Source of the DNA: a virus | DNA: 42,160 nucleotides | IMG/VR virus record: IMGVR_UViG_3300030104_005147 | Span: 1 to 42,160 of that record | Reading direction: 5' to 3' (one strand) | Shown here: in pieces, positions 3,134-24,866 of the stretch | How the letters are laid out: the number at the start of each line of letters is the position of its first letter | Position numbering within the stretch: position 1 is the stretch's first letter | The notes under the pieces: generated by a model | Database searches by the model: none | What the model saw: the letters and a program-made list of their open reading frames with translations, nothing else | What the model was told of the DNA's origin: nothing | Program-made: the position numbers and the translations under genes

Positions 3134-3535
3134 ATGCCTTTACAAAGGGTAAGTCAAGGTTTTAAAGATATTAGCATGACTTTTCAGGCTAATCCACTTA
3201 ATGGTGACCTTATAGGACTTAAAAATGAAAATGCCATTGCACGGGCACTAAGAAACATTGTTTTTACCCTACCAGGTGAAAAATTTTTTGATGAAAACTT
3301 TGGATCTAATGTTTCTGCTTCTCTTTTTGAAAATGTTGATGATATTAATGCTTCTGCGATCAGAGATGAGATTATACAATCAATTAACAACAATGAACCA
3401 AGAGTAGATCTTCAAAATGTGAAAATAATTCCAAATTTTGATGAAAATCAATTTGATGTAATTATTAAATACCTTATTATAGGAGCAGAGATTCCTGCTC
3501 AAGAATTACAATTCGTTCTAGTACCAACTAGGTAA
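3134..3535 (+). CDS. gp25: Baseplate wedge subunit, T4 gp25-like, 133 aa
   Basis: In T4, gp25 sits in the inner baseplate wedge and joins gp6 and gp53 next to the hub, where sheath assembly starts. The length (133 aa) is close to T4 gp25 (132 aa). The family signature is visible: a DL head, then NAIARALRNIVFTLPGEK (residues 33-50) and the FDENFG turn (about 52-57), as in the GPW/gp25 domain where a PGE..f...FG motif follows a helix. It heads the late structural block behind two late-promoter matches and is followed after one base by gp6, its physical partner in the baseplate. Confidence 0.92.
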   Translation: MPLQRVSQGFKDISMTFQANPLNGDLIGLKNENAIARALRNIVFTLPGEKFFDENFGSNVSASLFENVDDINASAIRDEIIQSINNNEPRVDLQNVKIIPNFDENQFDVIIKYLIIGAEIPAQELQFVLVPTR

Positions 3536-5585: not shown

Positions 5586-8500
5586 ATGACCGAAAAAAGA
5601 GTTCAATTTAGTAATATAGTTCAAAATCAACTTCCTGCATATGTTAGGAATGATTTTCCATTAATATCAGAGTTTCTAAAGCAATATTATATTGCTCAAG
5701 AATTTCAATCTGGTCCTATTGACCTGATTCAAAATATTGATAAGTATGTAAAAATTGATGAAACTACTAATTTAACAGAATCTGTAGTTTTAGGAGCAGA
5801 TGTTGGTGTAGAAAATACAACTATTAATGTTGATTTAATAGAATCAGAAGCAGGAACTGATGGATTTCCTGATTCCTATGGATTAATAAAGATTAATGAT
5901 GAAATAATAACATATACATCCAAAACAGCTAGTTCATTTCTTGGATGTATTAGAGGATTTGTCGGTACATGTGATTATAAGAGCGAATTAGACCCAGATA
6001 CATTAGTTTTTAAGACTTCAGTTGCTGGAGAACATAAGGAAGGTGATATAATTATTAATTTAAGTAATTTATTTCTTAAACAATTCTTATTAAAGAGCAA
6101 ATATCAACTTTTACCTGGTTTTGAAGGAAGAGCATTAAATATAGATCTTAATGAAAATGTTTTTATCAAACAAGCAAAAGATTTTTATCTAAGTAAGGGT
6201 ACTGATAGATCATTTGAAATTTTATTTAAAGCACTTTACAATGAAGATGTTAGTGTTTTAAAACCCAGAGAGCAGTTATTTACACCTTCTAATGCTGAGT
6301 ATAGGATTACAAAGGATCTGATAGTAGAACCCCTTACAGGCGATCCTACACACCTTAGAGACGCAACATTATATCAAGACGAATATGCTGATAATATTGG
6401 AAGTGCGTATGCTCCTATAACATCTGTCGAGCAATTAAATGTTGGTGCTGGTAAGACATTTTATAAGTTAAGTATCGATAGTGGTTATAATAGAGATAGT
6501 AGAGTAGAAGGGTCTATATATGGATCATTTGCATCAATTCCAAAAACTAAAATTATAGGAAAAGTATCTGCAGGAACTACTGTAATTGATGTAGATTCTA
6601 CACTTAGTTTTCCAAGTAGTGGTGAATTGTATGTAACATATGAAGATGAAAATGTTGGATTTGTTTCTTATACCTCAACATCTGTTAACCAATTTTATGG
6701 AGTTACTAATGTTTCTGGAATAATTTTAGATGGAACAATTTGTGGGATTAATACTTATGCATATGGAACTTCATCTGTAGATTCTTCAAAAGTTGAAGTT
6801 AGAATTACTAATATTTTAGAAAGTGTTAATTATCCTGATAATACATTTGGTCATAATAAGAATGAAACTGCAACAATTAATACTTTAGGTACTAAAAATA
6901 CATCATTTAAGTATAAGAATTGGGTTTATAATAATTCTCCAATTTATAGGATTAAGAACTTTGAATTAATTGATGTATCTAATTACACTTATAATGTTAA
7001 TTTAGATACCGAACATTATTTTAATTTAGGCGATACTGCTTCTATTATTACTTCTGGTCTAGAACTTGCAGAATCATACACAACTAAAATTGTTAATGTA
7101 ACTGGTGCAAAATCAATTACGATTCAAGGGCAAGGATTACTTCCTCCATTGAGTACCTATAATATTAAAAAATTAATATCAAGAACTGTTTCTAATCCTT
7201 TTCCTGAAGCATCAATTTATTCAACAAATGTTCAAAATGTTTATTCTAAACCTGTAGACATTCTTAACGGAAAACCATATGAAGGTCCAACCCATTTTCA
7301 TCCAGATACAAATAAGAAAATGGTTGGTGCAGAGCATGTAAGCACACCTCATGAAACTCTTACCACTATTAAAGGTTTAGATAAGATATTAGTTGCATCT
7401 CCATCTATACCTTCTTATGATTCTCAACCTATTAATGCGACTAAAAGATCTATCAGTTTTCAAGGATCATTTGGTGGAGATTTATTTGACATATCACATT
7501 TGTCTAATGGCACAACTATTGATGATCATGGATTTTACACTGGAGATGAGATATACTATACACCAGAAATAATAGAAAATACAGTAATTAGTCCAATTAC
7601 TGGAATTGCTGGAGTTACTACATCTATTAATTACTTACTTCCAAAAGAAGGTCTTTATTTTGTTAAAAGAATAGATTCTAGAACAGTACAATTTGCAAAT
7701 AGTCGTTCTAACATTTACAATAATCAATTTGTTTTTGTTCCAGCAAGAACTGTAACTAATCAAACAATAGAACCATATGAATTTAAGGATAAAACATTAC
7801 ATTCGCAAAAATTATTAAGAGAGATTGCTCCTCCTTCTAATGATGGTACTAAGACTAAAACTATTCATGGATTTACGGGAATATTGAATAATGGTGTTGA
7901 AATTTTAAATTATAAGTCTAAAGATATTGTTAGATATGGAGAAATTACTGATGTTGAGGTTTTAGCACCAGGAACTGATTATGATATAATTAATCCCACA
8001 GATATAAAGATTACAGATCAAGTAGGAACAGGTGCAACAGGATATCTTCATGTTAGAGGATCTTTAAAGGAAATAAGATTAAAAGATCAGGGTTATAATT
8101 ATGCAAGAGCACCTAAAGTTACTATTACTGGAGGTAATGGAAAGGGTGCAAAGGCAAGAGCAAATATGAAGTTGATTGCTAATCGTGCTACTTTTGTTGC
8201 TCAGGTTGTTAATAATAAAATAAATGTAGGTTTAGGTGCAACAAATTCTACAATTGGATTCTCTACATATCATAGATTTAATAATGGAGAAAAAGTTGTT
8301 TATATTTCAAATGGACAAAAAGGTGTTGCTGGATTATCTACAAACAATGAATATTTTGCTGGATTAAAAAATAGTACTAAAATAGCATTATACAATACCC
8401 AAAGTGATGCTCTTGCTGGTATTAATACAATTACACTAACTGATTATGGGGTAGGTACTCAATTTATTGAATCATTTAATAAAAAGTTAATTGTAGATTC

Positions 8501-11500
8501 TATTGTTATAGATGATGGTGGATTTGGATTTGCAAATAATAGAACTGCTACTCTTCCTGTTGGTATTAATACAGCATTAAATGAAATTAATATTAATAAT
8601 CATCATTATGAATCAGGGGAGACTATAAAGTATACTCCTGATGGAAGTGTTATTGGTGGATTAAATAGCGGAAATGAGTATATTGTAACGAAAGTCAATG
8701 ATAATATTTTTAAACTTTCAGCTTTTGGACCATCAAACGATAAAAACTTTAATTATAGAACTAAACAATATATTAATTTAACTACAGTTGGTGTTGGTAC
8801 ACATAATTTCAATTATCCTGAAATTAGTGTATCTCTAAGTGATGATGCAGAGCAAATTCAGGGAAGAAAGTATTCATGCGAAATTGATCCTATTTTTAGG
8901 GGTACTATTGCTTCATTTAATTTAACTGATAATGGTGTTGGGTATGGATCATCGGAAATTATTAATTTTGATAGACAACCCTTAATTGAACTTAGATCCA
9001 CAACTAATGCACAGGTAACACCTATTGTTAATGATGGAAAGATTATTGAGGTATTGGTTAATTATCCTGGAAATGGATATTATGCTTCCCCTAACGTAAC
9101 TATATCTGGTAGCGGAATAGGAGCAGAATTAGTTCCTATTATCGTAGAGGGAGTTATATCAGAAGTTAAGGTTATTAATCCAGGTGAGGGATATAATCAA
9201 AATGATATTAATGTAGCTATAACACCACCAGGAACAGGTGCTAGATTTAGATCTAATATTAAATCATGGAGAGTAAATTTAGTTAAAAAGAATTATGATA
9301 AGTTTACAGCAGATGATGGATTTATTACTACTCCAGTTAATGTTGATTATGGAGTTCAATATTCGCATTTATATGCACCTAGAAAATTAAGAGAGCAATC
9401 ATTTGCTGTCGGTATTAATACAGATACTGGGGAAACTTTATATGGTCAACCTGACTTAAAAATTCAAAATGGCGAAGAAGTTCCATCAACTTTCCATTCT
9501 CCTATTATTGGTTGGGCATATGATGGTCATCCCATTTATGGACCATATGGATATACGACTAAATCTGGTGGATCTATTAGTCAATTAAAATCTGGATATT
9601 CTATTAAAATAGGGGATAATAGACCTTCTATTGGTATTTTTCCCGAAGGATTTTTTATTGAAGATTATGTTTTTACAAAAACAACTGATGATACAATACT
9701 AGATGAAAATAATGGAAGATTCGGTGTTACTCCTGATTATCCAGAAGGAACATATGCTTATTTTGCAACAATTAATGATTCTGCAGCAGATTCTGATGGT
9801 CCTTTTGAAGGATTTAAGAGTCCTCAGTTTCCTTATTTTATAGGTGATAGTTATAATTCTAAAGTAAATGAATTTAATTTCAAAATAGGTTCTAATCAGG
9901 ATAATATTGATTTAAATACTGGCGAATGGTCAAGAAACACTACCCCTTATAATTTAATTGACGGAACTCTTCGATATGAATATCTAGATCTTCCTAATGA
10001 TTTAAAACAAACTGTTGACATTACTTCGACAACTCCTGGTGCTGTTGATAGTGTTGGAATCAGTACGGGAGGAGATTTTTATCGAATAGGTGAGTCGGTA
10101 ATATTTGAGAATAGTAGTACTCAAGGATCTGGTGCTGGTGCAAAAATATCAGTTGTTAAAGGTAAGCAAGTTAACAATATAAGTGTTGCTTCAAGTATTA
10201 TTTCAGGAGTAGAATTATATCCTTCATCTAAAGATGGTCAATGGGATATAATTTCTACCTATCCTCATAATTGGCAATTAAATGATCATATTATAGTTTC
10301 TGGATTATCTACAACTTCTACTGAATTAGGAGGTTCCTTTAATATAGGAATTACTACTAACAATTATGCTTTATCAGGATTAACAACAATTTCTACTGGT
10401 ATTGGTAATATTGCTGCAACTGGAATTGTTACTCATTTCAATGTTGAAGGAACAATCACTGCTAAACCTAATGATTTCTTTAAAATAGGATCTGAAATAA
10501 TAAAGGTTTTAAACCCAGAACCATCTAAGGCTAGGATTAGAGTTTTAAGAGGTCAGAATGGAACTGCAGGATCTGCACATACAGTAACTACTACTCTTTT
10601 TGAACAACAAAGAGAATTAAGTATTAATGTTGGATTTAATACTAATGATAATGTAAAACGTAATACTGAAATTTATTTCAATCCTTTAGAATCAGTTTCT
10701 GTTGGAGTGGGAATAGGAACAACACTTTCATTTGCTAATCCAGGAGCTGGAGTATCTGAACTCTTTGTTCCTTCCAAATCAATATACATACCAAATCATA
10801 ATTTAGAAACAGGAGATAAGTTAACATACAATGCAAATACTGGAACAGCTCTTTCTGTTAGATATACTGCAGGATCATCGATAGTATCATTAACTAATGG
10901 ACAAACACTTTATGCTGCTAAAATTAATTCTAATTTAATTGGAATATCTACAGTAGTTGTTGGATTAGGTTCTACAGGATCTTCTTTTGTTGGTATAGCA
11001 AGTGCTTATAAAGAATCTTCTACTTTATTCTTTAGTGGTATTGGAACTGGAGTTTATCATAGTTTTAAAACAAATTATGCTCCTATAACTGGAAAAATTA
11101 AGAGAAATTTAGTAACAGTATCAACTGCAAGTACTCATGGTTTGATAAGCGGAAACAATATTGAAGTCGATATAAATCCAGAAAATATTATTACCTATAA
11201 AGTAGTTTATAATGATTATAATAGGCGTATTGTAATTAATCAAAGATCTTTTGGTAATGCTGAAGTTGATGTTGATACTAATTCAATAACAATTCTTCAA
11301 CATGGGTACTATACTGGACAGAAGGTTATTCATACTGCTGCAACTCCTTCTGGAGGGTTATTAGATAATGGAATGTATTATGTTGTAGTAGTTGATGATG
11401 ATACTATTAAACTTTCAGATACTTTTTATAACTCTTCATTATTTAAACCATTTATTGTAGATATTACAAGTGCTTCTGCGGGAATAATAGGTCCAATTAA

Positions 11501-14500
11501 TCCATCTATTACTGGATACAAGAATTCTACAATTCAGTTTAATCTTTCTGATTCTTCTCTTGCATATTCTAAATTAACTACTTTATATTCTGCATTTGAG
11601 TTGAATTTCTATACTGATGAAAATATGACCACAATATGGGATAGTGGTAGTTCAGATGGAGAATTTTTTGTTAATAGAAACGGAAAGGTAGGTATAACTA
11701 CAGATGCAAATACTACTTTAAAAATTAATAGCGATACTCCATCTACATTATATTATAAATTTAGTCCTATATATGAATCTGATATTCCCGCAGTAAAAGA
11801 GCAAATTATAGTTGATAGAGAAAATGTTAAATCTAATCAGATTTATTCAGATGAAAGTAAGTTTAATGGAGAACATGCAATTACAGTTGGTGTTGGATCA
11901 ACAAATACATTTACATACACTTTAAGTGTTGATGCTGAAAAATCTTCTTATATTTCATCTACATCTGAAATTGATTATACTACTGATTCGGAATTTGCTT
12001 TAGGTCCAATATCTAAAGTTAAGATGATTTATGGTGGAAATAATTATTATAATCTTCCTGGTATTTCTACTATTAGTACTTTATTTGGAAAAAATGCCAT
12101 TGTTTATTCTGAAAGTACATCTATAGGAAAAATTAATCATACTGAATTGAATAGTGTTGGATTTAATTTTCCTACTGATAAAACTTTAAGTCCATCTTTG
12201 AATTTACCTCAAGTTATAAATGTTGATGCTCTTCAAGCTATTGAATCTATAGGAATTACATCTGTTGGAAGAGGATATTCTTCTGCACCTTCGTTACTTG
12301 TATTTGATGGTAAAACTGGTGAGCAAGTAAAAGGATTGGATTTATCTTATGATTTATCCACATCTTCAGTAACCATTTTATCAAATACTGCTGGTGTTAA
12401 TAATACTCCACCTAAAGTTTTGCCAGTTAGAAATAGCAATGGAGTAGGAATTAGTACTATTAGTTACAATGCATCAACAAGAGATGTAACAGTTAGTCTT
12501 GAAGTTGGATTTGGTACAGGAGTTGTATTCCCATTTGCTTATGGCGATAAAGTAATGATTGAGGGTGTGAGTGTAGGTGTTGGATCTACTGGTAAAGGAT
12601 ATAATTCTGAAAATTATGATTATCAATTGTTCTCTTTAACATCAGTTTCTCAAAATCCAGGTGGAATTGCAACAGTAAGATATAATATAAGTGAACATTT
12701 CCCTGATAGTATTACTACTCCAGGTACTATTGATATCTTTAATTCTTCAGGTAGAATTATTCCCGAAAAACATTTCCCATCTTTTAATGTTGAATTAAAA
12801 TCAAAAGAATATTTTGTAGGAGAAAATGTTACTTCAAACTCCGCTAGTGGTAGTGTTGAATCATGGAATTCTGTAAATGGAATACTAAATGTAACTTCTA
12901 ATGATAATTTCGCAGTTGGAGAAGTTATAATAGGATCTTCATCAGGAAGTCAAGGATTAGCTTCTTCAGTATCTTCTTATAATTCTAGTATTGAGTTAGA
13001 TTATTTCTCTGTAATTAAGAATGGATGGCAAAATGATTCTGGAGTTTTAAATAATAATCTTCAAAGACTTCAGGATAATGATTATTATCAGAATTTTTCA
13101 TATTCTCTTAAATCTAGAGTTCCTTCTGATACTTGGCAAGATGTTGTTGATTCTTTAAACCATACTTTAGGATTTAGAAATTTCTCAGATTTCCAAGCAG
13201 AATCATCTAATCTTGGATCATATGGTATAGTTGGTAGTCAAGTTCTTTTTGATGCGAGTGGGGGTGCTGATAAGAGTGGTATTAGCACTAATACCAGTGC
13301 TAACCCTCCTGGTGGTAAATGGGTAATGTCCAGTACTCAGGGTAGTGCTAATGTATCACAATCACCTATAACAGTAAGACCTATAAATGATTCAGGAATT
13401 ATTGATAGAATACAAGATTTAGTAGGTTACGCTAATTTAAATTCTGTTTATGATTTTGAAATTGGTACCGAAAATACTATAAATTCGGCAACAATTTCTA
13501 ATGAGATTGTTTTATCAGGATCTAGAGTTCTTACTGATTATTTTGAATCAATTGGTAATAGAGTTCTTTCAATCGATGATATAAGTAGTGAATTTAATAG
13601 TTCTCCACGAACAACAACATTTGGAGTTGTTTCCACTTTTGATTTAGAAGATGTTAGATCACAAAAGTTTATTACTTATGTTAAAGATAAGAGATTTTAT
13701 AATACAAGACAATTAATGATTGTTGATCTTGTTCATGATAATTATATTGGATATTTAAACCAATATGGTCGTCTTGAAAATGTTTACGATTTAGGATCAT
13801 TTGATTTTAATATTACTGGAACTCAAGGACAGTTATTATTCTATCCTAACAAATTCCAAGTCAATGATTTTGAAGTTACTGCATTATCATATAATATAAA
13901 TGATAATCTTTTAGGAATAGGTAATAGTTATTTTGGTGCTGCAGCAGAGATTAAAACCAGTAGTGTTAAAGTAGAGAGTACACCTACAACAATTGTTAGT
14001 CTTGCAAGTACTTATCGTGCAGCAAAAGTTTTAGTATCTCTTACTGCAGATAGCACTAAAATTGATGCAGGTGGAGAATTTGAATTTGATGAACTTAATA
14101 TTTTAAATAATGGAACAGATTTAGAAATAATTGAATATCCTCAATTAATTACAAGTCCATCCGCAAATAATCCTATACCAGGATTTGGAACATATTCTGC
14201 TTATATTGATGGATCATTAATGAAGGTTGATTTCCATCCACATACCAGTACAGTTGGAGTAGGAACAACATCTATTGTTAATACGATACAAGTTGCAATA
14301 AGTAGTGAAACTTCTACTGGAATTGGTACATTTGACCTTAAACATGCCAAGATCGAAGGTAGGTCAACATCTATTAGTTCTTCTGGATCTCCTACAGAAA
14401 ATGTAATTGGAAGTTATGTTAATGATTATGATGCAGCATATTTTGTAGTTCAAATATCAGACACTACTAATGATGCTTATTCATTCTCTGAAGTAATTAC

Positions 14501-17500
14501 TATTGATGATTATGATAGTTCAGATGGAAGTGGTGATACTTATAATACTGAATATGGAATTTTAGAATCTGTTGCTGGATTAGGTACTATTGGAACTAGG
14601 ATTACAGGAGCAGGAGCAGGTAATGATGCAGTAGTGGAATTGGTATTTACACCTCTTCCTAATATTGATACACATGTTAATGTGTTCATGAATGCATTAA
14701 GAATCCAAGATGATTCTAGAGATGTAATAAGTCTTGAGAATGCAACAATACAGACTGAATATGGCGAATACTTTGGTACAGAAAGAGATATTAAGAGAGC
14801 ATTTGGTCTTACTCATCAAACTAATCCTATTTTTGAAAGAAGTTTCACTGGAAACAGTACAGATGATGTTAATTTAACAACTGATACTATTCAGATAGCA
14901 AATCATTATTTTGTAACTGGTGAAGAACTTCAATACATCCATGCTGGAGCTGGCACAAGTCAAGCAATAGGAATTGCTTCTACTGATGGATTTGTTGGTG
15001 TAGGAACTACTGATAAATTACCTTCTAATGTTTTTGCTATCAAACTTAGTGAAGATAAAATAAAACTTGCAGCAACTGCTCAAAAAGCATTGATGGGTAT
15101 TCCTAATGCTGTTGATTTAACACATGTTGGTATTGGTACATCTCATAGATTTGTTTCCAAGAATCAGAATTCAAAAGTACTTGTAACTTTAGATAATATT
15201 ATTCAGTCTCCTATTGTATCTACAGCAGTAACTACTCATCTTAATGATCAAGTATTTACGACTAGTGATATTGTTGAATTTGCAGGAATTACTTCATTCT
15301 TTGGTGGAGATTTGATTAGAATTGGTAATGAAATAATGAAGATTGAGGGTATTGGAGTTGGTAATACAAATTCAATTAGAGTTAGGAGATCATGGTTAGG
15401 AACTTCACTTGCTGGATATAGTACAGGTGATGTTATTACTAAGGTTATTGGTAATTATAATATTGTTGAAAATACTTTGAATTTTGTAGAAGCACCTTAT
15501 GGAAATGTTCCAATAGGTAGCATCACTAATCCTCCTGATGATAGAGATTGGACTGGAATATCTACGGGTTCTCATTTCCAAGGTAGATCATTTATGCGTT
15601 CTGGTATACCTAATACCGCAACGGAAACATATGCTAGAAATTATATTTTTGATGATATTTCATCAGGATTTACTGGCACTGAAAGAGATTTTGCTTTAAC
15701 TTCTGCAGGATCAACAGTAACTGGCATTGAAAATGATAATGCTATAATTTTAATTAATGATGTATTCCAAGCACCAGGAAGAGATCCTAATGATTATTTA
15801 ATAGAAGAAACAGGATCAACAGGTATTACAACTATTTCATTTACAGGAACTGCATCTTCAATTGCTTCTGATGTTAATACATCTAACTTACCTGTTGGTG
15901 GAGTTATTGTTTCAGTCGGATCTACTGAAGGGTTTGGTTATCAACCATTAGTTGCTGCTGGAGGTACTGCTTTAGTATCTGCTGGTGGAACGATTTCATC
16001 TGTTTCTATTGGTAATAGTGGTTCTGGTTATAGATCTGGTTCTCAAATTGCTAATGTTGGTATTCAAACTCAAGATTTAAAGGGAACTACTATTATAGGA
16101 ATCGGAACTGCAGTAGTAGAGGGAGGACATGTTACTGGTATTGCAGTAACTAATTCTCAAGTATTTTATGCCCCAAGAGTGGTAACTAATGCTGAATATA
16201 ATAACTCTACTGGTCAGTTAATTGTAACTACATCTACTGTTCATGGATTAAATGTTGGTAGTGAAGTATTAGTATCTGGAATTGCATTTACTTGTACATA
16301 TTCAAGTTCTGCTCCAAGGGACATCTCTAATTTCACTTATAATAATGTAACAGGAAAAGCAGTTGTAACTACTTCTACTCCACATGCATTATCTGTAGGT
16401 AAGGATGTCATCTTTACTGGAATTGCAATGACATGTGGTTTGGACAATGGTTCATCTACACATGTATACCCAAGAACCACTGATCCTAATTATTCTGGTT
16501 CTGTAGTTACGGAAGTTGTTTCTCCTACAGAATTTGAAACTAATGTTGGTATTTCTACAGTGCCTACATTCTACCAGTCTGGAGGAACAGTACAAAGATC
16601 TTTAATGACCCCAAGAGCAACTGATCCTGCAGCAACAGGAACAGATGTTGTGCAAATATTAGATTCTACTACATTTGCTATAAATGTTGGTATTTCTACT
16701 ACATCACATCTTTATGCCAGAGGTGGTAGTGTTACAATGCCAATGGAAGTTGTTATCGATTCTCCACTTTCATACTCAAATATTCCTCTACAATATAGTT
16801 CTTCTTCTGTATCTGGAATTGGTTCTAATGCAACTATTGATGTGGTAGTTGGACAAGGATCAAGTGTTATTGATTTCACTATTAAAAATAGTGGATATGG
16901 ATATGGTAATAGTGAAATTTTAACTTTACCTATTGGGGGAACTACAGGAATACCAACTACTTCTGGATATAAAGAATTCCAAGTTAATATTGAAAATGTA
17001 TTTACTGATGAATTTACTGGTTGGTCGATAGGAGAATTGCAATCATTAGATGATATTTCCTATCTCTTTGATGGTGGTAGATTATTGTTCCCATTAACTC
17101 AGTCAGGTGAAGTTATTTCAATAAGAGCAAGTAAAGGATCTGTTATTAGTATTCAAGATACTCTTCTGATATTTGTAAATGATGTTCTTCAAACACCTGG
17201 TAAGGGTTATAAGTTTGATGGTGGAAGCACTATAACGTTTACTGAAGCACCTAAAGCAGGAGATACATGCAAGATAGTCTTCTATAAGGGTAGTGGTGGT
17301 CAGGATGTTAAGTTTAGAGATATTGAAGAACCTGTTGAAGTAGGTGATACTTTAGAATTATATGCAACTCCACCAACACCATCTTACTTAGATGAAGATC
17401 CAAGGGCAGTCACAAATATTAAATCTACTAATAATGTAGATACCATTGCTTATTATGGTCCAGGAATTGTAGGAGATCCTAATTTAGAAAGACCCGTTAA

Positions 17501-18632
17501 TTTAAATAGACAAACTGAGGATATAATCCTTAATGGAAAAGAAGTTGCAAAGGATAGATCATTATATGAACCACGAGTTGTCCCTTCAGCAAATATTATT
17601 AAGTCTGTTGAAGTAGGTTCAACTAAATTATATGTTGATAATGTAAGACCTATATTTGATTCTCAAAATGAAAGTGATTTAAATCTTAATTTCCAAAATA
17701 AAGTTACTCTTACATCCCAAGATGTAAAGGTAGGTGCTTCTGCTACTTCTGTAATTTCTACTGGGGGATCTGTTACATCTATTTCTATACTTGATGGTGG
17801 AAGTGGATATATATCTACTCCAAATGTAGTTATTTCAAATGCTGTTGGATTAGGATCTACTGCTATTGCTACTGCAACAGTATCTGCTGCAGGAACAATT
17901 AGCTCAGTAAATGTATCATATGCAGGTACAGGTTATACTGAAAATCCTCAAGTACTAATAGAACCTCCTGTAACACTCACTGAAACTAATGATGTTGATT
18001 CTTACATTGGTGATTATGGTGTTGTTGTAGGATTTGGAACTACAACATCTAGCAGTGTTGATAAGATGATTATGGATTTATACATTCCAGTATATTCTGA
18101 TCTAAGAGATACAAAATTAGTTGGAACTGCAGTTACTCTAAGTTCTTTAGATGTTGGAGATTACTTTATGGTCTTTGCATCTAATGCAGGGTCTGCGACT
18201 ACATCCATAACTTCTAAAGATGTGAATGGAAACACAATTGGTGTAGGAACACAATTCATTGATAACATATATCAAGTAAGTGCTTCTACTATTCAACAGA
18301 GAGATGTGGTAGGTGTAGGAACTACTGCTGTAAGAAGAGTTTATGCTAATATAAGTGGTCTTTCAACAGTTACTTTTGGAAGTTCTAATCTTACCTTTGA
18401 TTCTACCAACTTCACCTTTGATAATGATGGTGAGGGTGCTGGAAGTGGATTTGTTGGAGTTATGACAGCTTCTAACTTCTTTGGTAACTTTAGTTGGGGT
18501 AAGATTACCTTAACAGGAAGATCTGAAAGTACTCAATATAATACTTACCCTGATGATGGTATAAGTGGAATCTCTACATGGCCTGTAGTACAACGAACAT
18601 CTCCATTGAAGTCTGTTAATTATATTATCTAA
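5586..18632 (+). CDS. Giant virion structural protein, 4348 aa, in the gp7 position (baseplate/tail, multi-module)
   Basis: One uninterrupted 13-kb frame. The N-terminal ~290 residues look like a baseplate attachment domain, and the location after gp25-gp6 is where T4 has gp7 (1032 aa); gp7 equivalence is inference. Visible modules: 'IGxEII...RG' repeats (about 68-140, 325-385, 1621-1675, 3225-3290); an HxH...H....H cluster (H570, H572, H584, H589); 'HxxxTGExVxY' repeats (near 648, 896, 1005, 1737, 1905, 3106); GxGY beta repeats (near 836, 1162, 1200, 2228, 3479, 3770, 4071, 4115); a YHYH-like motif GWAYDGHPIYGPYGY (about 1309-1323); and a central block around 2495-2530 (NDYYQNFSYSLKSR). The repeats suggest an elongated beta-rich fibre. 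There is no signal peptide or membrane segment. It is probably an extended tail or baseplate appendage; adsorption is a guess. Confidence 0.85.
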   Translation: MTEKRVQFSNIVQNQLPAYVRNDFPLISEFLKQYYIAQEFQSGPIDLIQNIDKYVKIDETTNLTESVVLGADVGVENTTINVDLIESEAGTDGFPDSYGLIKINDEIITYTSKTASSFLGCIRGFVGTCDYKSELDPDTLVFKTSVAGEHKEGDIIINLSNLFLKQFLLKSKYQLLPGFEGRALNIDLNENVFIKQAKDFYLSKGTDRSFEILFKALYNEDVSVLKPREQLFTPSNAEYRITKDLIVEPLTGDPTHLRDATLYQDEYADNIGSAYAPITSVEQLNVGAGKTFYKLSIDSGYNRDSRVEGSIYGSFASIPKTKIIGKVSAGTTVIDVDSTLSFPSSGELYVTYEDENVGFVSYTSTSVNQFYGVTNVSGIILDGTICGINTYAYGTSSVDSSKVEVRITNILESVNYPDNTFGHNKNETATINTLGTKNTSFKYKNWVYNNSPIYRIKNFELIDVSNYTYNVNLDTEHYFNLGDTASIITSGLELAESYTTKIVNVTGAKSITIQGQGLLPPLSTYNIKKLISRTVSNPFPEASIYSTNVQNVYSKPVDILNGKPYEGPTHFHPDTNKKMVGAEHVSTPHETLTTIKGLDKILVASPSIPSYDSQPINATKRSISFQGSFGGDLFDISHLSNGTTIDDHGFYTGDEIYYTPEIIENTVISPITGIAGVTTSINYLLPKEGLYFVKRIDSRTVQFANSRSNIYNNQFVFVPARTVTNQTIEPYEFKDKTLHSQKLLREIAPPSNDGTKTKTIHGFTGILNNGVEILNYKSKDIVRYGEITDVEVLAPGTDYDIINPTDIKITDQVGTGATGYLHVRGSLKEIRLKDQGYNYARAPKVTITGGNGKGAKARANMKLIANRATFVAQVVNNKINVGLGATNSTIGFSTYHRFNNGEKVVYISNGQKGVAGLSTNNEYFAGLKNSTKIALYNTQSDALAGINTITLTDYGVGTQFIESFNKKLIVDSIVIDDGGFGFANNRTATLPVGINTALNEININNHHYESGETIKYTPDGSVIGGLNSGNEYIVTKVNDNIFKLSAFGPSNDKNFNYRTKQYINLTTVGVGTHNFNYPEISVSLSDDAEQIQGRKYSCEIDPIFRGTIASFNLTDNGVGYGSSEIINFDRQPLIELRSTTNAQVTPIVNDGKIIEVLVNYPGNGYYASPNVTISGSGIGAELVPIIVEGVISEVKVINPGEGYNQNDINVAITPPGTGARFRSNIKSWRVNLVKKNYDKFTADDGFITTPVNVDYGVQYSHLYAPRKLREQSFAVGINTDTGETLYGQPDLKIQNGEEVPSTFHSPIIGWAYDGHPIYGPYGYTTKSGGSISQLKSGYSIKIGDNRPSIGIFPEGFFIEDYVFTKTTDDTILDENNGRFGVTPDYPEGTYAYFATINDSAADSDGPFEGFKSPQFPYFIGDSYNSKVNEFNFKIGSNQDNIDLNTGEWSRNTTPYNLIDGTLRYEYLDLPNDLKQTVDITSTTPGAVDSVGISTGGDFYRIGESVIFENSSTQGSGAGAKISVVKGKQVNNISVASSIISGVELYPSSKDGQWDIISTYPHNWQLNDHIIVSGLSTTSTELGGSFNIGITTNNYALSGLTTISTGIGNIAATGIVTHFNVEGTITAKPNDFFKIGSEIIKVLNPEPSKARIRVLRGQNGTAGSAHTVTTTLFEQQRELSINVGFNTNDNVKRNTEIYFNPLESVSVGVGIGTTLSFANPGAGVSELFVPSKSIYIPNHNLETGDKLTYNANTGTALSVRYTAGSSIVSLTNGQTLYAAKINSNLIGISTVVVGLGSTGSSFVGIASAYKESSTLFFSGIGTGVYHSFKTNYAPITGKIKRNLVTVSTASTHGLISGNNIEVDINPENIITYKVVYNDYNRRIVINQRSFGNAEVDVDTNSITILQHGYYTGQKVIHTAATPSGGLLDNGMYYVVVVDDDTIKLSDTFYNSSLFKPFIVDITSASAGIIGPINPSITGYKNSTIQFNLSDSSLAYSKLTTLYSAFELNFYTDENMTTIWDSGSSDGEFFVNRNGKVGITTDANTTLKINSDTPSTLYYKFSPIYESDIPAVKEQIIVDRENVKSNQIYSDESKFNGEHAITVGVGSTNTFTYTLSVDAEKSSYISSTSEIDYTTDSEFALGPISKVKMIYGGNNYYNLPGISTISTLFGKNAIVYSESTSIGKINHTELNSVGFNFPTDKTLSPSLNLPQVINVDALQAIESIGITSVGRGYSSAPSLLVFDGKTGEQVKGLDLSYDLSTSSVTILSNTAGVNNTPPKVLPVRNSNGVGISTISYNASTRDVTVSLEVGFGTGVVFPFAYGDKVMIEGVSVGVGSTGKGYNSENYDYQLFSLTSVSQNPGGIATVRYNISEHFPDSITTPGTIDIFNSSGRIIPEKHFPSFNVELKSKEYFVGENVTSNSASGSVESWNSVNGILNVTSNDNFAVGEVIIGSSSGSQGLASSVSSYNSSIELDYFSVIKNGWQNDSGVLNNNLQRLQDNDYYQNFSYSLKSRVPSDTWQDVVDSLNHTLGFRNFSDFQAESSNLGSYGIVGSQVLFDASGGADKSGISTNTSANPPGGKWVMSSTQGSANVSQSPITVRPINDSGIIDRIQDLVGYANLNSVYDFEIGTENTINSATISNEIVLSGSRVLTDYFESIGNRVLSIDDISSEFNSSPRTTTFGVVSTFDLEDVRSQKFITYVKDKRFYNTRQLMIVDLVHDNYIGYLNQYGRLENVYDLGSFDFNITGTQGQLLFYPNKFQVNDFEVTALSYNINDNLLGIGNSYFGAAAEIKTSSVKVESTPTTIVSLASTYRAAKVLVSLTADSTKIDAGGEFEFDELNILNNGTDLEIIEYPQLITSPSANNPIPGFGTYSAYIDGSLMKVDFHPHTSTVGVGTTSIVNTIQVAISSETSTGIGTFDLKHAKIEGRSTSISSSGSPTENVIGSYVNDYDAAYFVVQISDTTNDAYSFSEVITIDDYDSSDGSGDTYNTEYGILESVAGLGTIGTRITGAGAGNDAVVELVFTPLPNIDTHVNVFMNALRIQDDSRDVISLENATIQTEYGEYFGTERDIKRAFGLTHQTNPIFERSFTGNSTDDVNLTTDTIQIANHYFVTGEELQYIHAGAGTSQAIGIASTDGFVGVGTTDKLPSNVFAIKLSEDKIKLAATAQKALMGIPNAVDLTHVGIGTSHRFVSKNQNSKVLVTLDNIIQSPIVSTAVTTHLNDQVFTTSDIVEFAGITSFFGGDLIRIGNEIMKIEGIGVGNTNSIRVRRSWLGTSLAGYSTGDVITKVIGNYNIVENTLNFVEAPYGNVPIGSITNPPDDRDWTGISTGSHFQGRSFMRSGIPNTATETYARNYIFDDISSGFTGTERDFALTSAGSTVTGIENDNAIILINDVFQAPGRDPNDYLIEETGSTGITTISFTGTASSIASDVNTSNLPVGGVIVSVGSTEGFGYQPLVAAGGTALVSAGGTISSVSIGNSGSGYRSGSQIANVGIQTQDLKGTTIIGIGTAVVEGGHVTGIAVTNSQVFYAPRVVTNAEYNNSTGQLIVTTSTVHGLNVGSEVLVSGIAFTCTYSSSAPRDISNFTYNNVTGKAVVTTSTPHALSVGKDVIFTGIAMTCGLDNGSSTHVYPRTTDPNYSGSVVTEVVSPTEFETNVGISTVPTFYQSGGTVQRSLMTPRATDPAATGTDVVQILDSTTFAINVGISTTSHLYARGGSVTMPMEVVIDSPLSYSNIPLQYSSSSVSGIGSNATIDVVVGQGSSVIDFTIKNSGYGYGNSEILTLPIGGTTGIPTTSGYKEFQVNIENVFTDEFTGWSIGELQSLDDISYLFDGGRLLFPLTQSGEVISIRASKGSVISIQDTLLIFVNDVLQTPGKGYKFDGGSTITFTEAPKAGDTCKIVFYKGSGGQDVKFRDIEEPVEVGDTLELYATPPTPSYLDEDPRAVTNIKSTNNVDTIAYYGPGIVGDPNLERPVNLNRQTEDIILNGKEVAKDRSLYEPRVVPSANIIKSVEVGSTKLYVDNVRPIFDSQNESDLNLNFQNKVTLTSQDVKVGASATSVISTGGSVTSISILDGGSGYISTPNVVISNAVGLGSTAIATATVSAAGTISSVNVSYAGTGYTENPQVLIEPPVTLTETNDVDSYIGDYGVVVGFGTTTSSSVDKMIMDLYIPVYSDLRDTKLVGTAVTLSSLDVGDYFMVFASNAGSATTSITSKDVNGNTIGVGTQFIDNIYQVSASTIQQRDVVGVGTTAVRRVYANISGLSTVTFGSSNLTFDSTNFTFDNDGEGAGSGFVGVMTASNFFGNFSWGKITLTGRSESTQYNTYPDDGISGISTWPVVQRTSPLKSVNYII

Positions 18633-18658: not shown

Positions 18659-20527
18659 ATGGCAAAGTTAGGTATATCGACAGGAACCACACCAGATGAC
18701 GGAACAGGTACTAGTCTGTTAGTAGGTGCTGCAAGAATTAATAATAATTTTGATGAAATATATGATTATTTTGGAACTGGTACTAATCTTGATTTTGCGG
18801 GTGGTAGATTTGTAGAAACTGATGCTGGTATTCATACATTATCCAGTGTTGGTATAGGAACTACTAATCCAACGTATTCTCTCACGGTAAAAGGTAATAC
18901 TGAGGTAACTGGTCTTACAAGTTTTGTAAATCCAAATGATGGTACAGATAGATTAGAAGTAGCATATTATGCTCAACCTACTCTTAGATTCCTGTCTGGT
19001 AGTGCTATGGCAGGAACCATTGAAGGTCAAATGGGTGGGTTGCATTTAAAATCAGTTGCTACAAAGGCAATTGAAATTAATGACAATGCTGCAGTATTTG
19101 GTAGTGCTACAAACTATTATGATGTTCAATTAAATAAGGCTAATAATGGTTCTACAAAGGTTGGTGCAAATATTCAATTCCTTCCTTCAACGGGTATTGT
19201 AAGTGCAACATCATTTAGAGGTGATGGGTCACAATTAACTGGTATTTCTGCTAGTGGTACTGGTGGTAAGTTTGTTGCTAATGCTACTGGTATTCATACA
19301 TTATCAAGTGTTGGTATAGGAACTACAACTGCAACTGGTGCTGTTAATACAGGTAATACATCAGTATTAAATGTTGGTGTTGTAACTGCCAATAATTTTT
19401 ATGGTACTTTCAGAGGTGATGGAACTAATATTACTGGTATTGGTGTTACTAATGTTAAAAATGATGGTGGTGATGTAAAACTTCAAACTAATACTTCTGG
19501 TGTAAGTATTACGGGTATTGCAACTGCAACAAGTTTTGTTGGAGATGGATCAGGATTAACGGGTATTGTTGGTTCTGGTGCTGGTATTGTTGTTAAAGAT
19601 AGTGGTAGTGCAGTAGGAACAGCAGGAACAATTAACTTTGCTGAGAGTTTATCAGTAAGTGCTATTTCTGGTGCTGCTGTTACGGTATCATTTACTGGAG
19701 ATACTAATTATTGGGGCCAGAATGATACTGGTATTCATACTACAGGGAGTGTTGGTATAGGAACTACTAATGCTAGACCTGGATATCATTTAACTGTTGA
19801 TGGTAATTTAAAGTTAATTGGTGCGGGGCAAGGTGGTGGTACTGTTGGTGGGGGTAATCTTGATGTTACTGGTGTATCTACATTCCTGCAAACAGTAGAT
19901 TTTAAATCAGACTTTTATGTTCCTGATTCCAAAACAGCACAGTTTGGAGATAATAATGATTTATGGATATGGCATGATGCCACTGGTCATTCCATGATTA
20001 GGAATGGTGGAGGGGATTTAAGAATACGATCAAACTCGTTCAGAATTAGATCTTTTGATGACTCAACGGATTATTTAACGGCAGACTTAACTGGGGAGGT
20101 TTCTCTTTTCCATAATAACCAAAAGCGATTAGCAACTTCTGGAGTGGGAGTTACCGTTTATAGTGGAAGTTCTACTGAAGCAAAAGTTGATATTAAACCA
20201 GGTACTGGATCTTTCAATGGTGCTGTAGGTGCTGCTACAACTATTGATGAATGGAAGTTATCAGATAATGAGTTCAGATCTGCTGAATATCAACTTACTG
20301 TCACTAATTCTAATGGTGGATATGTACAATCACAGAAAGTTTTGGTAATGCATGATAATACTAATGCATTCTATAGCGAATGGGCAGTAATGTATGGTGG
20401 ACAAGGAGCTAGATTAGTTTCAGTTGGTGCAACTACATCTGGTGGTTATGTAAGATTAGAAGTTACTCCACAAGCAGGATATTCTGGTATAACCAGTTAC
20501 TTCTTCAGTAGAACTGCTATAGGTTAA
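18659..20527 (+). CDS. Tail-fibre-like structural protein, 622 aa
   Basis: The N-terminus (MAKLGISTGTTPDDGTGTSL, then ARINNNFDEIYDYFG) resembles the attachment end of marine phage fibres. Typical fibre repeats follow: SSVGIGTTNP (about 62-71) and similar copies, and three 'GDGSxLTGI' units (near 187, 252 and 295). A later block, FGDNNDLWIWHDATGHSMI followed by GDLRIRS, matches the 'FGDsnDLxIyHD' element common in marine phage fibres. The last ~90 residues (from about 530) form a globular-looking domain that recurs as the bulk of the 123-aa protein at 40516. No ribosome binding site is obvious. It is followed after one base by the protease-like gene. Role inferred: part of the tail appendages, possibly receptor binding. 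Confidence 0.8.
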   Translation: MAKLGISTGTTPDDGTGTSLLVGAARINNNFDEIYDYFGTGTNLDFAGGRFVETDAGIHTLSSVGIGTTNPTYSLTVKGNTEVTGLTSFVNPNDGTDRLEVAYYAQPTLRFLSGSAMAGTIEGQMGGLHLKSVATKAIEINDNAAVFGSATNYYDVQLNKANNGSTKVGANIQFLPSTGIVSATSFRGDGSQLTGISASGTGGKFVANATGIHTLSSVGIGTTTATGAVNTGNTSVLNVGVVTANNFYGTFRGDGTNITGIGVTNVKNDGGDVKLQTNTSGVSITGIATATSFVGDGSGLTGIVGSGAGIVVKDSGSAVGTAGTINFAESLSVSAISGAAVTVSFTGDTNYWGQNDTGIHTTGSVGIGTTNARPGYHLTVDGNLKLIGAGQGGGTVGGGNLDVTGVSTFLQTVDFKSDFYVPDSKTAQFGDNNDLWIWHDATGHSMIRNGGGDLRIRSNSFRIRSFDDSTDYLTADLTGEVSLFHNNQKRLATSGVGVTVYSGSSTEAKVDIKPGTGSFNGAVGAATTIDEWKLSDNEFRSAEYQLTVTNSNGGYVQSQKVLVMHDNTNAFYSEWAVMYGGQGARLVSVGATTSGGYVRLEVTPQAGYSGITSYFFSRTAIG

Positions 20528-20528
20528 A

Positions 20529-22994
20529 ATGTCAGATTTTACAGATTGGAAAGATACACTTACCAAAGAACCCGATTCTGGTAAAAAATACTATGCAGTT
20601 GGATGCGATAATGCGTCTGATTGGGTATGGATTGACTCTGTATTGAAACAAGATGGTAGTAATGAGGCAGGAGTACCCTCTGAGTCTATTACCTGTCCAG
20701 ATAGCAAATATCATAGTGAGACAAGGGCAATTTATCTTTTAACAGATGATGAAGCTGCTTTTCTTAGAAATAATCCTAAAGTAAAATTTGTCAATATAAG
20801 TCATGATCATTATCCTGGAACATATAGGGAAGATCCTGCTAATTTGATAGATGGATATAAAACTGATAGATATTCTGATACGGTTTATAATTATCGAAAT
20901 GCAACACCACCAGGATCTGCAAATAATGAATTAGAGCAGTATAGAGTAGGATATCAAATAAAAAGAGTACAACAAAAAGAAGATCCTTGGGAGTATTCAA
21001 CTATAAATGAAAAACTTCCTGATAGATTAAAATATTATGGAGATGGTTCAGATGTTGATATTATAGTTGGTGATACAAGATGTTGGTTTGGTCATGAGGA
21101 TTTTTTAAATACTTCATGTCAGGGAGATAATGCAAATCCTGCATGTACCCATGAAACAACTGGTATATCTTTTGGTCCTGACCAGAATCAAGGAATGAAT
21201 GCAATGTATAGAGCAGGAATTTCTACAACCTTTGGATATTGTGATGTTTTAGATTTGGTATTAGATGCTCCGTATTATATTGATCCAGATTACTTTAATG
21301 CAGATCCATCAAGGACTATAGTTAGATGGGATGGTACTACAACAGCAGCAGAGACACCTGCAAGACTTTGGTGGAGTGATAGTACCAAAAGGTCTGCAGC
21401 ATTTGCGGGTATAGGTGAAGTAAGCACAATTACAACATCTTATACCAGAGCAAATTGTAATGGAGATCCTGCTAATGATAATGCAAGTGGTTATCCAAAT
21501 TATCACGGAACATCTTGTGCTGCACAAGCATATGGTAAGACTAGTGGATGGGCATTCAATGCTAATAAGTGGTTCTGTAATATAATCGGTACAAGTAGTG
21601 TTGATCCTGAAGAGTATTACGATATGATGAAATTATTTCATCTATATAAACCTAATAGGAAATCTGACAATACTAAGAATCCAACAGTGTCAAGTAATAG
21701 TTGGGGTTCTAGAAAAGAACCTTTAAATTCAGGGTATTATTATTTCCGACAAGGGACAGATGGAAGTGCTGTTGGTACATATTATTCATCTAAACCTGCA
21801 TTTATGGCCAATTTTTCACAATCTACTATTAGATATGAATATGAAGATTGGAGTGCAACAGAAGCAGGTAAAGAGATGATAGATGCAGGAGTAATATTTG
21901 TATGTTCTTCAGGAAATACTAATCAAAAATTAGTAAAAGCAGATCATGCGGATTATAATAATTATTATGCATCTGGAACTTATACCCCATTAACTTCTGC
22001 TTATGATACTTCTGGTGGAATTAAAAGATATAATACTACTAGTAGACAAGGTTATCCTGGACAAATAGGAAAAACAGGAACTGGTAGTGATACTAAGTAT
22101 AGGACTATTCCAGTGGGTGCATTAGATGAAGACTATACAACATCTCCCCATAAGGAAAGAAAAGCAGATTATAGTAATATGGGCAATTTAGTTAGTCATT
22201 ATAGTCCAGGTAGAAATACTTTAGCATCAAGTTCTTTGTATGGAACAACTTACGCAAGATATAGATCTACCTATGAATCAACTGAAAAGGGTGGAAGTAC
22301 TACAAATTCTACTACCAGTTATGATAGAAAGTTTGGTGGAACCAGTTCTGCTTGTCCAACTTCTGCAGGATTAATTGCTACTAAACTTCAATATAATAGG
22401 GGATGGCTTGTAGAAGATGTATTGGCATGGATTGAGGCTGAATTGGGGAATATGGATTCCAGTGATATGTACGCAGGAACCGAATCATCTACCGCAACTG
22501 ATTCAAATTGGTCTGATGATTATTCTCTTGAAGGTGGTCCTCCAAGAATTCTTTGGGATGCCCCATCAGGTGGTGAACCTTCCGAAGCTATAATTATGTC
22601 GGGAGTTGTTATAGATAGTTTACCCTTAGCCACCTATACCTATGCAATTTCAGTAACTAGTAGTGGTTCTTCTGCTTACGTACTTAGTGGTGATCCTGGA
22701 GTTGTTGTTCCTGGTAATAATACAACAGTAAATTGTAGTGTTGGTGATACACTTAATTTTGCTGTCAATGCTTCAGGACATCCATTTTTTATTAGAGTAT
22801 CAAATGGAGGTGCAAATGTAAGCACTCCTGCAGCAACAAATCAGGGCACTCAAAATGGTACTGTCTCTTGGACACCTAACACTGCTGGCACTTACTATTA
22901 TCAGTGTGGAAATCACGCTGGTATGATTGGAACTATTCTTGTTGTTGCTGCTGTTAGTGATGGTGGTAACTTAACTATAGACTTGCAAACCTAA
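20529..22994 (+). CDS. Subtilisin-like serine protease (S8) with C-terminal cupredoxin-like domain, 821 aa
   Basis: Subtilase catalytic features appear in order: DIIVGDT (Asp182), YHGTSCAAQ (His326), VCSSGN (oxyanion Asn463) and FGGTSSACP (Ser606 in GTSxxxP). A stretch before the catalytic domain (LTDDEAAFLRNNPKVKFVNI, about 70-90) resembles the end of an I9-type propeptide. After about residue 690 comes a separate beta domain with GDTLNFAVNASGHPFF (His751) and YYYQCGNHAGMIGTI (Cys793, His796, Met799). That H...C-x2-H-x2-M spacing matches the type-1 copper ligands of plastocyanin-like cupredoxins. No signal peptide is seen. The gene sits inside the fibre/baseplate cluster, one base after the fibre gene, so it is probably a virion protein. 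Protease activity on a host surface or on phage proteins, and copper binding, are inferred. Confidence 0.85.
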   Translation: MSDFTDWKDTLTKEPDSGKKYYAVGCDNASDWVWIDSVLKQDGSNEAGVPSESITCPDSKYHSETRAIYLLTDDEAAFLRNNPKVKFVNISHDHYPGTYREDPANLIDGYKTDRYSDTVYNYRNATPPGSANNELEQYRVGYQIKRVQQKEDPWEYSTINEKLPDRLKYYGDGSDVDIIVGDTRCWFGHEDFLNTSCQGDNANPACTHETTGISFGPDQNQGMNAMYRAGISTTFGYCDVLDLVLDAPYYIDPDYFNADPSRTIVRWDGTTTAAETPARLWWSDSTKRSAAFAGIGEVSTITTSYTRANCNGDPANDNASGYPNYHGTSCAAQAYGKTSGWAFNANKWFCNIIGTSSVDPEEYYDMMKLFHLYKPNRKSDNTKNPTVSSNSWGSRKEPLNSGYYYFRQGTDGSAVGTYYSSKPAFMANFSQSTIRYEYEDWSATEAGKEMIDAGVIFVCSSGNTNQKLVKADHADYNNYYASGTYTPLTSAYDTSGGIKRYNTTSRQGYPGQIGKTGTGSDTKYRTIPVGALDEDYTTSPHKERKADYSNMGNLVSHYSPGRNTLASSSLYGTTYARYRSTYESTEKGGSTTNSTTSYDRKFGGTSSACPTSAGLIATKLQYNRGWLVEDVLAWIEAELGNMDSSDMYAGTESSTATDSNWSDDYSLEGGPPRILWDAPSGGEPSEAIIMSGVVIDSLPLATYTYAISVTSSGSSAYVLSGDPGVVVPGNNTTVNCSVGDTLNFAVNASGHPFFIRVSNGGANVSTPAATNQGTQNGTVSWTPNTAGTYYYQCGNHAGMIGTILVVAAVSDGGNLTIDLQT

Positions 22995-23315: not shown

Positions 23316-24866
23316 ATGTCTGCAATTATAACTGATCAGATTAGAATATTAAACGCAAAGAATTTTGTTGCTGGTGTTTCTTCCAGTTCTAATTCTTATT
23401 ATTCATTTATTGGTTTACCAAATCCAGTTGATCATCAATCTGATTGGGAGAAGAATCCTCCTGCACCTAAAGATAGTTTTGATGATGAGAATCAATATTG
23501 GGATGATATGATTGCATTGAAAAAAATCAATGCATCGGATGTTAGACAGGTGATACCGAAAAGAATGTGGACATCTGGTACAGTTTATGATATGTATAGA
23601 TCTGATTATACTAGATCTAATACTGCTAAAGTATCAGGTGCTACTAACTTATATAATGCATCTTATTATGTTATGAATGCGGATTATAGAGTTTATGAAT
23701 GTTTGCAGAACGGAACAACTCCTGAAACACCAAATGGAAAATCATCTTTAGATGAACCAACATTTATTGATTTAGAACCAAGAGCAGCAGGAACAAGTGG
23801 TGATGGTTATATATGGAAGTATTTGTATACTATCAAACCAAGTGATATTGTAAAATTTGATTCTACTAATTTTATTCCAGTACCTCCAAATTGGGAGACT
23901 AATTCAGATAATGCACCTGTTCGTAATAATGCAGTTAATGGATCTATTAAAATAGTTACTATCACTAATCGTGGAGTGGGTGTGGGTACTGCTAATAGAA
24001 CTTATACTAGAGTTCCTATTAGAGGAAATGGTACTGGAGGGGAATGTACTTTAGTTATTAATAATGATCAAACAGTTGATTCTGTAACTGTTTCTAGTCA
24101 AGGTTCTGGATATACCTATGGTAATATTGATTTAGCAGCAGGTGGAGTTCCTTCAGGAACAACATTACCAACTTTTGATGTTATAATTTCTCCTGAAGGA
24201 GGGCATGGTTCTAATATCTACAGAGAACTTGGAGCATATAATGTATTATTATATTCTCGTATCGAGAATGATGCTGAAAATCCTGATTTCGTTACAGGAA
24301 ATGAATTTGCACGAATAGGAATAGTAGAAAATCCACAATCTACTCCATCTTCATTACTGGTTTCTGATAAAGCAAGTGCACTATCTGCTTTAAAAATAAC
24401 TGGAGTGGGATATAGTAGTGCTATATTTACTCTTGACGCAGAATTTACCCAAACTGTTGCTGCAGGGTCTACTGCTGTTGGTAGAGTCGTTAGTTATGAT
24501 CAAACCACTGGAGTATTAAAATATTGGCAAGATAGAACTCTTGCTGGATTCAATACAGTTGGTACTGCACAAACTGATCCTACATATGGATATGAATTAG
24601 TTGATTTTACAAGTAATCCCAGTTCTCCTGGATCTTTAGCAATTAATCATGTTTCAACTTCTAATTTGAGCATAGATTCTGGTTTTAGTGGTATAAGTAC
24701 CGTAATAAATAATAGAACCTATTACCTGGGTCAAGCTTTTACGAGTGGTATTGGTAATGCCGAAGTCGAAAAGTACACAGGAAATATATTATATGTTGAT
24801 AATAGACCTTCTATTACTAGATCATCTAATCAAAAAGAAGACATTAAAGTCATTTTGCAGTTCTAA
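23316..24866 (+). CDS. gp8: Baseplate wedge subunit, T4 gp8-like, 516 aa (expanded)
   Basis: In T4, gp8 dimers sit in the peripheral part of the baseplate wedge between gp7 and gp10. The N-terminal ~200 residues carry the cyanophage gp8 pattern: AKNFVAGVSSSSNSYYSFIG (14-33), then LPNPVDHQSDW and, later, DGYIWKYLYTIKPSDIVKF. T4 gp8 is 334 aa; the extra length here includes a GxGY-type beta insert (about 215-285, with SSQGSGYTYG) and a C-terminal beta extension. It lies downstream of the giant protein, in the same relative order as T4 6-7-8, but separated by the fibre and protease genes. Confidence 0.85.
   Translation: MSAIITDQIRILNAKNFVAGVSSSSNSYYSFIGLPNPVDHQSDWEKNPPAPKDSFDDENQYWDDMIALKKINASDVRQVIPKRMWTSGTVYDMYRSDYTRSNTAKVSGATNLYNASYYVMNADYRVYECLQNGTTPETPNGKSSLDEPTFIDLEPRAAGTSGDGYIWKYLYTIKPSDIVKFDSTNFIPVPPNWETNSDNAPVRNNAVNGSIKIVTITNRGVGVGTANRTYTRVPIRGNGTGGECTLVINNDQTVDSVTVSSQGSGYTYGNIDLAAGGVPSGTTLPTFDVIISPEGGHGSNIYRELGAYNVLLYSRIENDAENPDFVTGNEFARIGIVENPQSTPSSLLVSDKASALSALKITGVGYSSAIFTLDAEFTQTVAAGSTAVGRVVSYDQTTGVLKYWQDRTLAGFNTVGTAQTDPTYGYELVDFTSNPSSPGSLAINHVSTSNLSIDSGFSGISTVINNRTYYLGQAFTSGIGNAEVEKYTGNILYVDNRPSITRSSNQKEDIKVILQF

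Follow-up and report, generated by a model that had tools for sequence, protein, structure and literature searches.

A subtilisin-like protease with an interchangeable cupredoxin domain in the tail module of a T4-like phage, probably a cyanophage

Subtilisin-like (S8) peptidases are already on record in cyanophages, both in the literature, where Sullivan et al. 2010 mention them (PMC3037559), and in databases, where they appear as T4-GC 292 with PF00082 or under the names 'subtilisin-like serine protease' and 'peptidase S8'. In PHROGs the fused family is phrog_9158, with its function listed as unknown. The records of this T4-like cyanophage family (T4-GC 292 / phrog_9158; PSSM2_297, SSSM7_232, S-H9-1) note PF00082, and those of PSSM2_297, SSSM7_232 and S-H9-1 leave the copper domain unannotated; we find a C-terminal cupredoxin in the proteases of S-H9-1, ACG-2014e/i/j and S-CAM4. 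Amicyanin, pseudoazurin, plastocyanin and rusticyanin share the fold, the four-ligand set and the profile match with the domain described here, and amicyanin also shares its C-x2-H-x2-M loop. From these type-1 cupredoxins the phage domain differs in three ways: it forms part of virion proteins, by fusion or insertion, its His is followed by Pro (GHPF), and it has no known redox partner. The same cupredoxin also occupies the C-terminus (positions 304-410 of the 412-position profile) of the gp9-like connectors of phrog_677 (baseplate wedge / tail fibre). These are not proteases, whereas in the stretch analysed here the gp9-like fibre protein lacks the cupredoxin and the protease has it. Marine Flavobacteriaceae Ig-repeat surface proteins (L078-L124) end in a cupredoxin that is 40-56% identical and has the same ligand motif, but these are cellular proteins and their loci contain no S8 family match. 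Ig-like and DUF285 repeats make up the longest of the proteins scanned. That the same cupredoxin closes large marine Flavobacteriaceae proteins suggests that domains have passed between phages and Bacteroidetes, or that both drew on a common source. In the open-access journal literature we found no paper on cupredoxins in phage virions and nothing relevant on virion subtilases in phage; the shuffling of copper domains between viral tail proteins appears to be undescribed.

The window, meaning the whole stretch of DNA analysed, is a complete IMG/VR virus record of 42,160 bases with a T4-like tail module:

3134-3535: gp25, tail module
3537-5576: gp6-like wedge, tail module
5586-18632: ORF of 4348 aa, tail module
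18659..20527, forward strand: fibre protein of 622 aa whose N-terminal part matches families of tail fibres and baseplate anchors
20529..22994, forward strand: protein under study, S8 protease with C-terminal cupredoxin, 821 aa
23014..23283, forward strand: 89-aa ORF, unknown, downstream of the protease gene
23316..24866, forward strand: baseplate wedge gp8, 73% identical to its best match, gp8 of S-SM2
After gp8: ORF of 2478 aa, then equivalents of gp13, gp14 and gp15, tail module

The first-pass annotation had placed the protease in a tail gene cluster, and gp25, the gp6-like wedge, the fibre, gp8 and the gp13-gp15 equivalents do surround it. The further claim that it sits between the fibre gene and gp8 is right in that both flank it, but the 89-aa ORF intervenes before gp8. 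The protease gene starts 1 nt past the end of the fibre gene. In the relatives' loci checked, the gene upstream of the protease encodes a fibre or gp9-like protein, and the T4-like cyanophage S8 family has the same tail neighbourhood and upstream fibre gene as the window. Since gp8 is closest to that of Synechococcus phage S-SM2, the window phage, an ocean phage, is a cyanophage or a near relative; going by phage kinship, the host is probably a cyanobacterium. Internal DNA repeats are present in the fibre gene, seen as several short additional BLAST matches at ~18800-19770, and the 4348-aa ORF holds a YHYH domain (PF14240, E 3e-22), a domain of unknown function, at residues 1301-1397.

The following features were assigned within the 821-aa protein, all on the forward strand:

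20589..20820: possible I9-like prodomain, ~residues 21-97, with AExLRxxPxVxxV as the consensus in the family
20982..22575: catalytic domain of subtilisin type, spanning residues 152-682
21072-21074: D182 codon
21504-21506: H326 codon
21915-21917: N463 codon
22344-22346: S606 codon
22613..22962: cupredoxin cassette; the collinear relatives L001 and L002 lack precisely this stretch, a net 348 bp (116 codons)
22779..22781: codon of the predicted copper ligand His751
22905..22925: predicted copper loop C793-G-N-H796-A-G-M799

We defined an S8 protease by Asp, His and Ser in DTG-like, HGT and GTSxA contexts together with an oxyanion Asn. The contexts at residues 182, 326, 463 and 606 are DTRCWFGHED, HGTSCA, SSGN and GTSSACP, so that the catalytic set proposed in the first-pass annotation lies exactly where it was read. 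The window protein itself gives no match to Pfam PF00082; each of the ten relatives that were scanned passes the cut-off of this family, with E from 2e-7 to 8e-31, and phrog_9158 matches over residues 18-805 (E 2e-107). A profile of the S8 family matched 129 PDB sequences, and all 60 of those listed are subtilases; aqualysin was matched at E 1.5e-17. The AF2 model of the full-length protein is poor (pLDDT 55.8, too low for triad geometry), and its first Foldseek matches are proteinase K-like enzymes (1s2n at 7.9e-6). In the computed alignments the four catalytic residues line up in every one of the 32 distinct relatives in the first set, loosely in L025, and belong to the 23 invariant columns of an alignment of 22 sequences; they are identical between the window protein and the T4-like cyanophage family. 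The wider set retains all four in 98 of its 107 rows, the others having Glu at the Asp column (4) or a gap (5). Judged from sequence, the S8 assignment is beyond chance, and proteolytic activity would be expected because the catalytic residues are conserved across relatives. In L025 (731-3865), three cupredoxins in tandem precede an S8-like region that has diverged, with poor alignment of its Asp.

The protein starts without a signal-peptide-like sequence. I9 propeptides are common among secreted S8 members but not universal. Matches to Inhibitor_I9 are seen in three of ten relatives scanned, under the Pfam cut-off (E 0.018-0.11), and the AF2 model shows a beta-alpha / alpha-beta pattern in this stretch at low pLDDT. 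An I9-like prodomain ahead of the catalytic domain, suspected already at first reading, is thus plausible rather than proven.

The cupredoxin follows the S8 domain at ~residues 700-811. The type-1 ligand pattern suggested earlier (H751, C793, H796, M799) is present at those positions, and the structure prediction of residues 690-821 that had been proposed as a check points to a cupredoxin fold. The AF2 model of this region is confident (pLDDT 90.1). Its Foldseek matches, with rusticyanin and plastocyanin among the top ones, further include amicyanin, laccases and the cupredoxin domains of nitrite reductase. Superposition on rusticyanin 2cal with VIA-align gives Z 10.7 and rmsd 2.2 over 93 residues, with 30% identity. 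A profile of 37 relatives matched 49 PDB sequences, every one a cupredoxin or a cupredoxin-containing copper protein. The PF00127 score of the window domain is 16.6 bits against a gathering cut-off of 21.2, which is passed by relative L025 (32.4 bits) and by three scanned Flavobacteriaceae proteins where PF00127 is listed (23-25). By profile and model alike, the cupredoxin assignment is beyond chance. A chance motif match was ruled out for both domains, as fold, profile and conservation are concordant.

The domain had been called plastocyanin-like, which is apt for the fold but not for the copper loop. The plastocyanin loop is C-x2-H-x4-M, longer than that of amicyanin (CTPHPFM), and alignment with PDB sequences together with established knowledge gives the window loop, C-x2-H-x2-M, the amicyanin length. 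Plastocyanin proper (PetE) is defined by the longer loop and by being a soluble lumenal protein; the window domain, fused to a protein of the tail module, falls outside this class. The HCHM ligand set is found in 78 of 92 distinct cupredoxin domains and in 39 of 45 non-redundant ones, and the ligand columns rank 1-4 of 111 in conservation. Without the domains that hold the DNA-scan pattern they rank 1, 2, 6 and 7 of 108, and 27 of 31 domains keep all four ligands. Since the four ligand columns are the best conserved of 111, the site appears to be under selection for metal binding, and as the complete type-1 site is retained, the cupredoxin most likely binds copper.

The cupredoxin behaves as a mobile cassette. 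In the closest relatives of the window, L001 and L002 (flanks of 6.1 and 5.0 kb with DNA identity of 83% and 80%, respectively), the site is empty, with the frame kept and the C-terminal tail shared (VSDGGNLTIDLQT in the window, MSGDLTLNFQT in L001/L002). Copper would thus not be needed for the conserved protease, which exists in these phages without the cassette; the copper domain is a cassette that can be dispensed with, not a component of the protease machine. Besides the proteases named above, a C-terminal copy is found in AG-345-P14. In other phages the cupredoxin lies ahead of the catalytic part (L005, L205-L209), within the protease (AG-345-F15, L037, L049, L244, L252), or in an adjoining gene (gp9 of S-SSM7; a 168-aa product annotated 'PetE' in S-SCSM2R). 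It also occurs in other tail proteins, i.e. the proximal fibre of P-SSM2 and giant proteins of P-HM1 and MED4-213. Fusions or adjacent pairs of protease and cupredoxin are thus present in many phages, so the combination is not singular; some of the proteases were already annotated as subtilisin-like or S8. Nor is it an artefact: a unique or artefactual fusion was ruled out by the empty site in L001/L002 and the other arrangements in many relatives.

In a tree of the cupredoxins, the window domain belongs to a group of 26 with good support, most of whose members come from proteins other than the protease; its nearest neighbours there are L005 and L008. The protease-fused domains are scattered, requiring up to 8 label changes, of which 2 are forced by starred branches; the 111 columns are too few to resolve more than these 2. 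A single origin of the protease-fused cupredoxins was considered and set aside on these grounds. Cyanophages are not the only carriers of the module, as a cupredoxin match is found in an actinobacterial phage (Actinomycetia phage DSL-LC01, OQ999401.1, 104010-104348; 35% identity, E 3e-5).

We surveyed the linkage of the two domains in 80 viral-contig loci retrieved by the S8 protease alone, regardless of cupredoxin. A cupredoxin ORF lies within 150 nt up- or downstream of the S8 gene in 33 of the 80, usually 2-25 nt away, although independent cases are fewer than 33 since some loci are near copies. A more distant cupredoxin is seen in 3 loci; 2 S8 ORFs contain one, and 49 S8 ORFs have none. 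Where an S8 locus holds a cupredoxin, it is almost always the immediate neighbour of the protease. This suggests that the two act in the same place, probably in the same sub-assembly.

Several relatives point to the virion as that place. In S-SCSM1, SSCSM1_228 (L063 5236-9468; 1411 aa, with S8 and lectin-like Laminin_G_3 domains) and the cupredoxin-bearing SSCSM1_231 are both labelled 'virion protein'. The label is selective, the terminase subunits and the baseplate protein SSCSM1_17 lacking it. We count 48 such labels and the S-SCSM1 paper reports 45 proteins detected by MS (PMC9602691), so the label is probably, but not certainly, an MS result. In S-SZBM1, MS detected a baseplate protein of 498 aa, S-SZBM1_206, through 9 peptides at 24.9% coverage (PMC9146016); the last 106 residues of this protein form the same cupredoxin as in the window. 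Its neighbour S-SZBM1_207, a candidate S8 protein, was dropped because the S8 profile finds no match in it. In S-TIM54 (L060 6013-12432) a 2140-aa annotated virion structural protein combines esterase-like (BD-FAE/COesterase), S8, Ig and cupredoxin domains. A virion location of window-type proteases is supported by these relatives, and by analogy the window protein would be placed there too.

We propose that the protein is a virion-borne zymogen protease that acts at the host surface and carries an interchangeable copper-binding beta-sandwich, a reading to which we give about an even chance. The protease would be made in the host cytoplasm without a signal peptide, probably as a zymogen with its I9-like prodomain, expressed together with the fibre protein of the adjoining upstream gene, and built into the baseplate or the fibre periphery of the tail. 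Outside the cell it would cut host-surface proteins during adsorption. This last step is the leading reading because of the company the domain keeps, lectin-like in S-SCSM1 and esterase-like, Ig and cupredoxin in S-TIM54, which favours an exterior, surface-directed enzyme. A serious rival, which we hold to be possible at a distinctly lower level of confidence, is a maturation protease that cleaves its own prodomain and the neighbouring giant fibre and baseplate proteins during assembly and leaves the host untouched. The prodomain-like stretch, the position of the gene within the baseplate gene order, and its adjacency to and tight coupling with a fibre gene in most loci would all suit such a role; the fusions to lectin-like, Ig and esterase-like domains fit an exterior enzyme better. 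To our knowledge, the S8 gene is missing from classical T4 baseplates, which argues that tail assembly does not generally need such a protease.

In the proposed virion-borne protease, the cupredoxin would most likely be a metal-stabilised exposed or adhesive module beside the enzyme, an interchangeable beta-sandwich that phages shuffle among tail proteins. Its high mobility and dispensability, the degraded ligand sets of some copies (FCYY, HLFT, HAYQ) and the use of Ig domains at similar places in other phage tail proteins would suit a purely structural Ig-like spacer with a vestigial metal site, but the conservation of the four ligand columns makes this unlikely. It is hardly credible that the cupredoxin carries electrons for host photosynthesis as a soluble-type protein, in the manner of phage petE. 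The domain does match PetE of phrog_515 distantly, and the S-SCSM2R copy stands alone under that name, but the cupredoxins are fused to or adjoin tail genes and are closer to the Flavobacteriaceae surface-protein domains. S-SCSM1 moreover has petE as a gene apart, alongside PTOX, gnd and zwf; this, the location and the loop length rule out identity with the auxiliary photosynthesis gene. It is conceivable, although improbable, that the copper centre serves as a virion sensor or switch, in which copper or redox state at or outside the cyanobacterial envelope would gate the protease or fibre adhesion. If this were true, marine phage tails would widely contain blue-copper sites as active elements that have so far gone unrecognised.

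Little is known of receptor processing or proteolytic maturation in cyanophages, and the conserved S8 enzyme offers a concrete candidate for a protease of either kind. Were copper to be bound, the virions of marine cyanophages would count as metalloprotein particles, which would bear on cell-surface copper chemistry and on how cyanophages breach their hosts.
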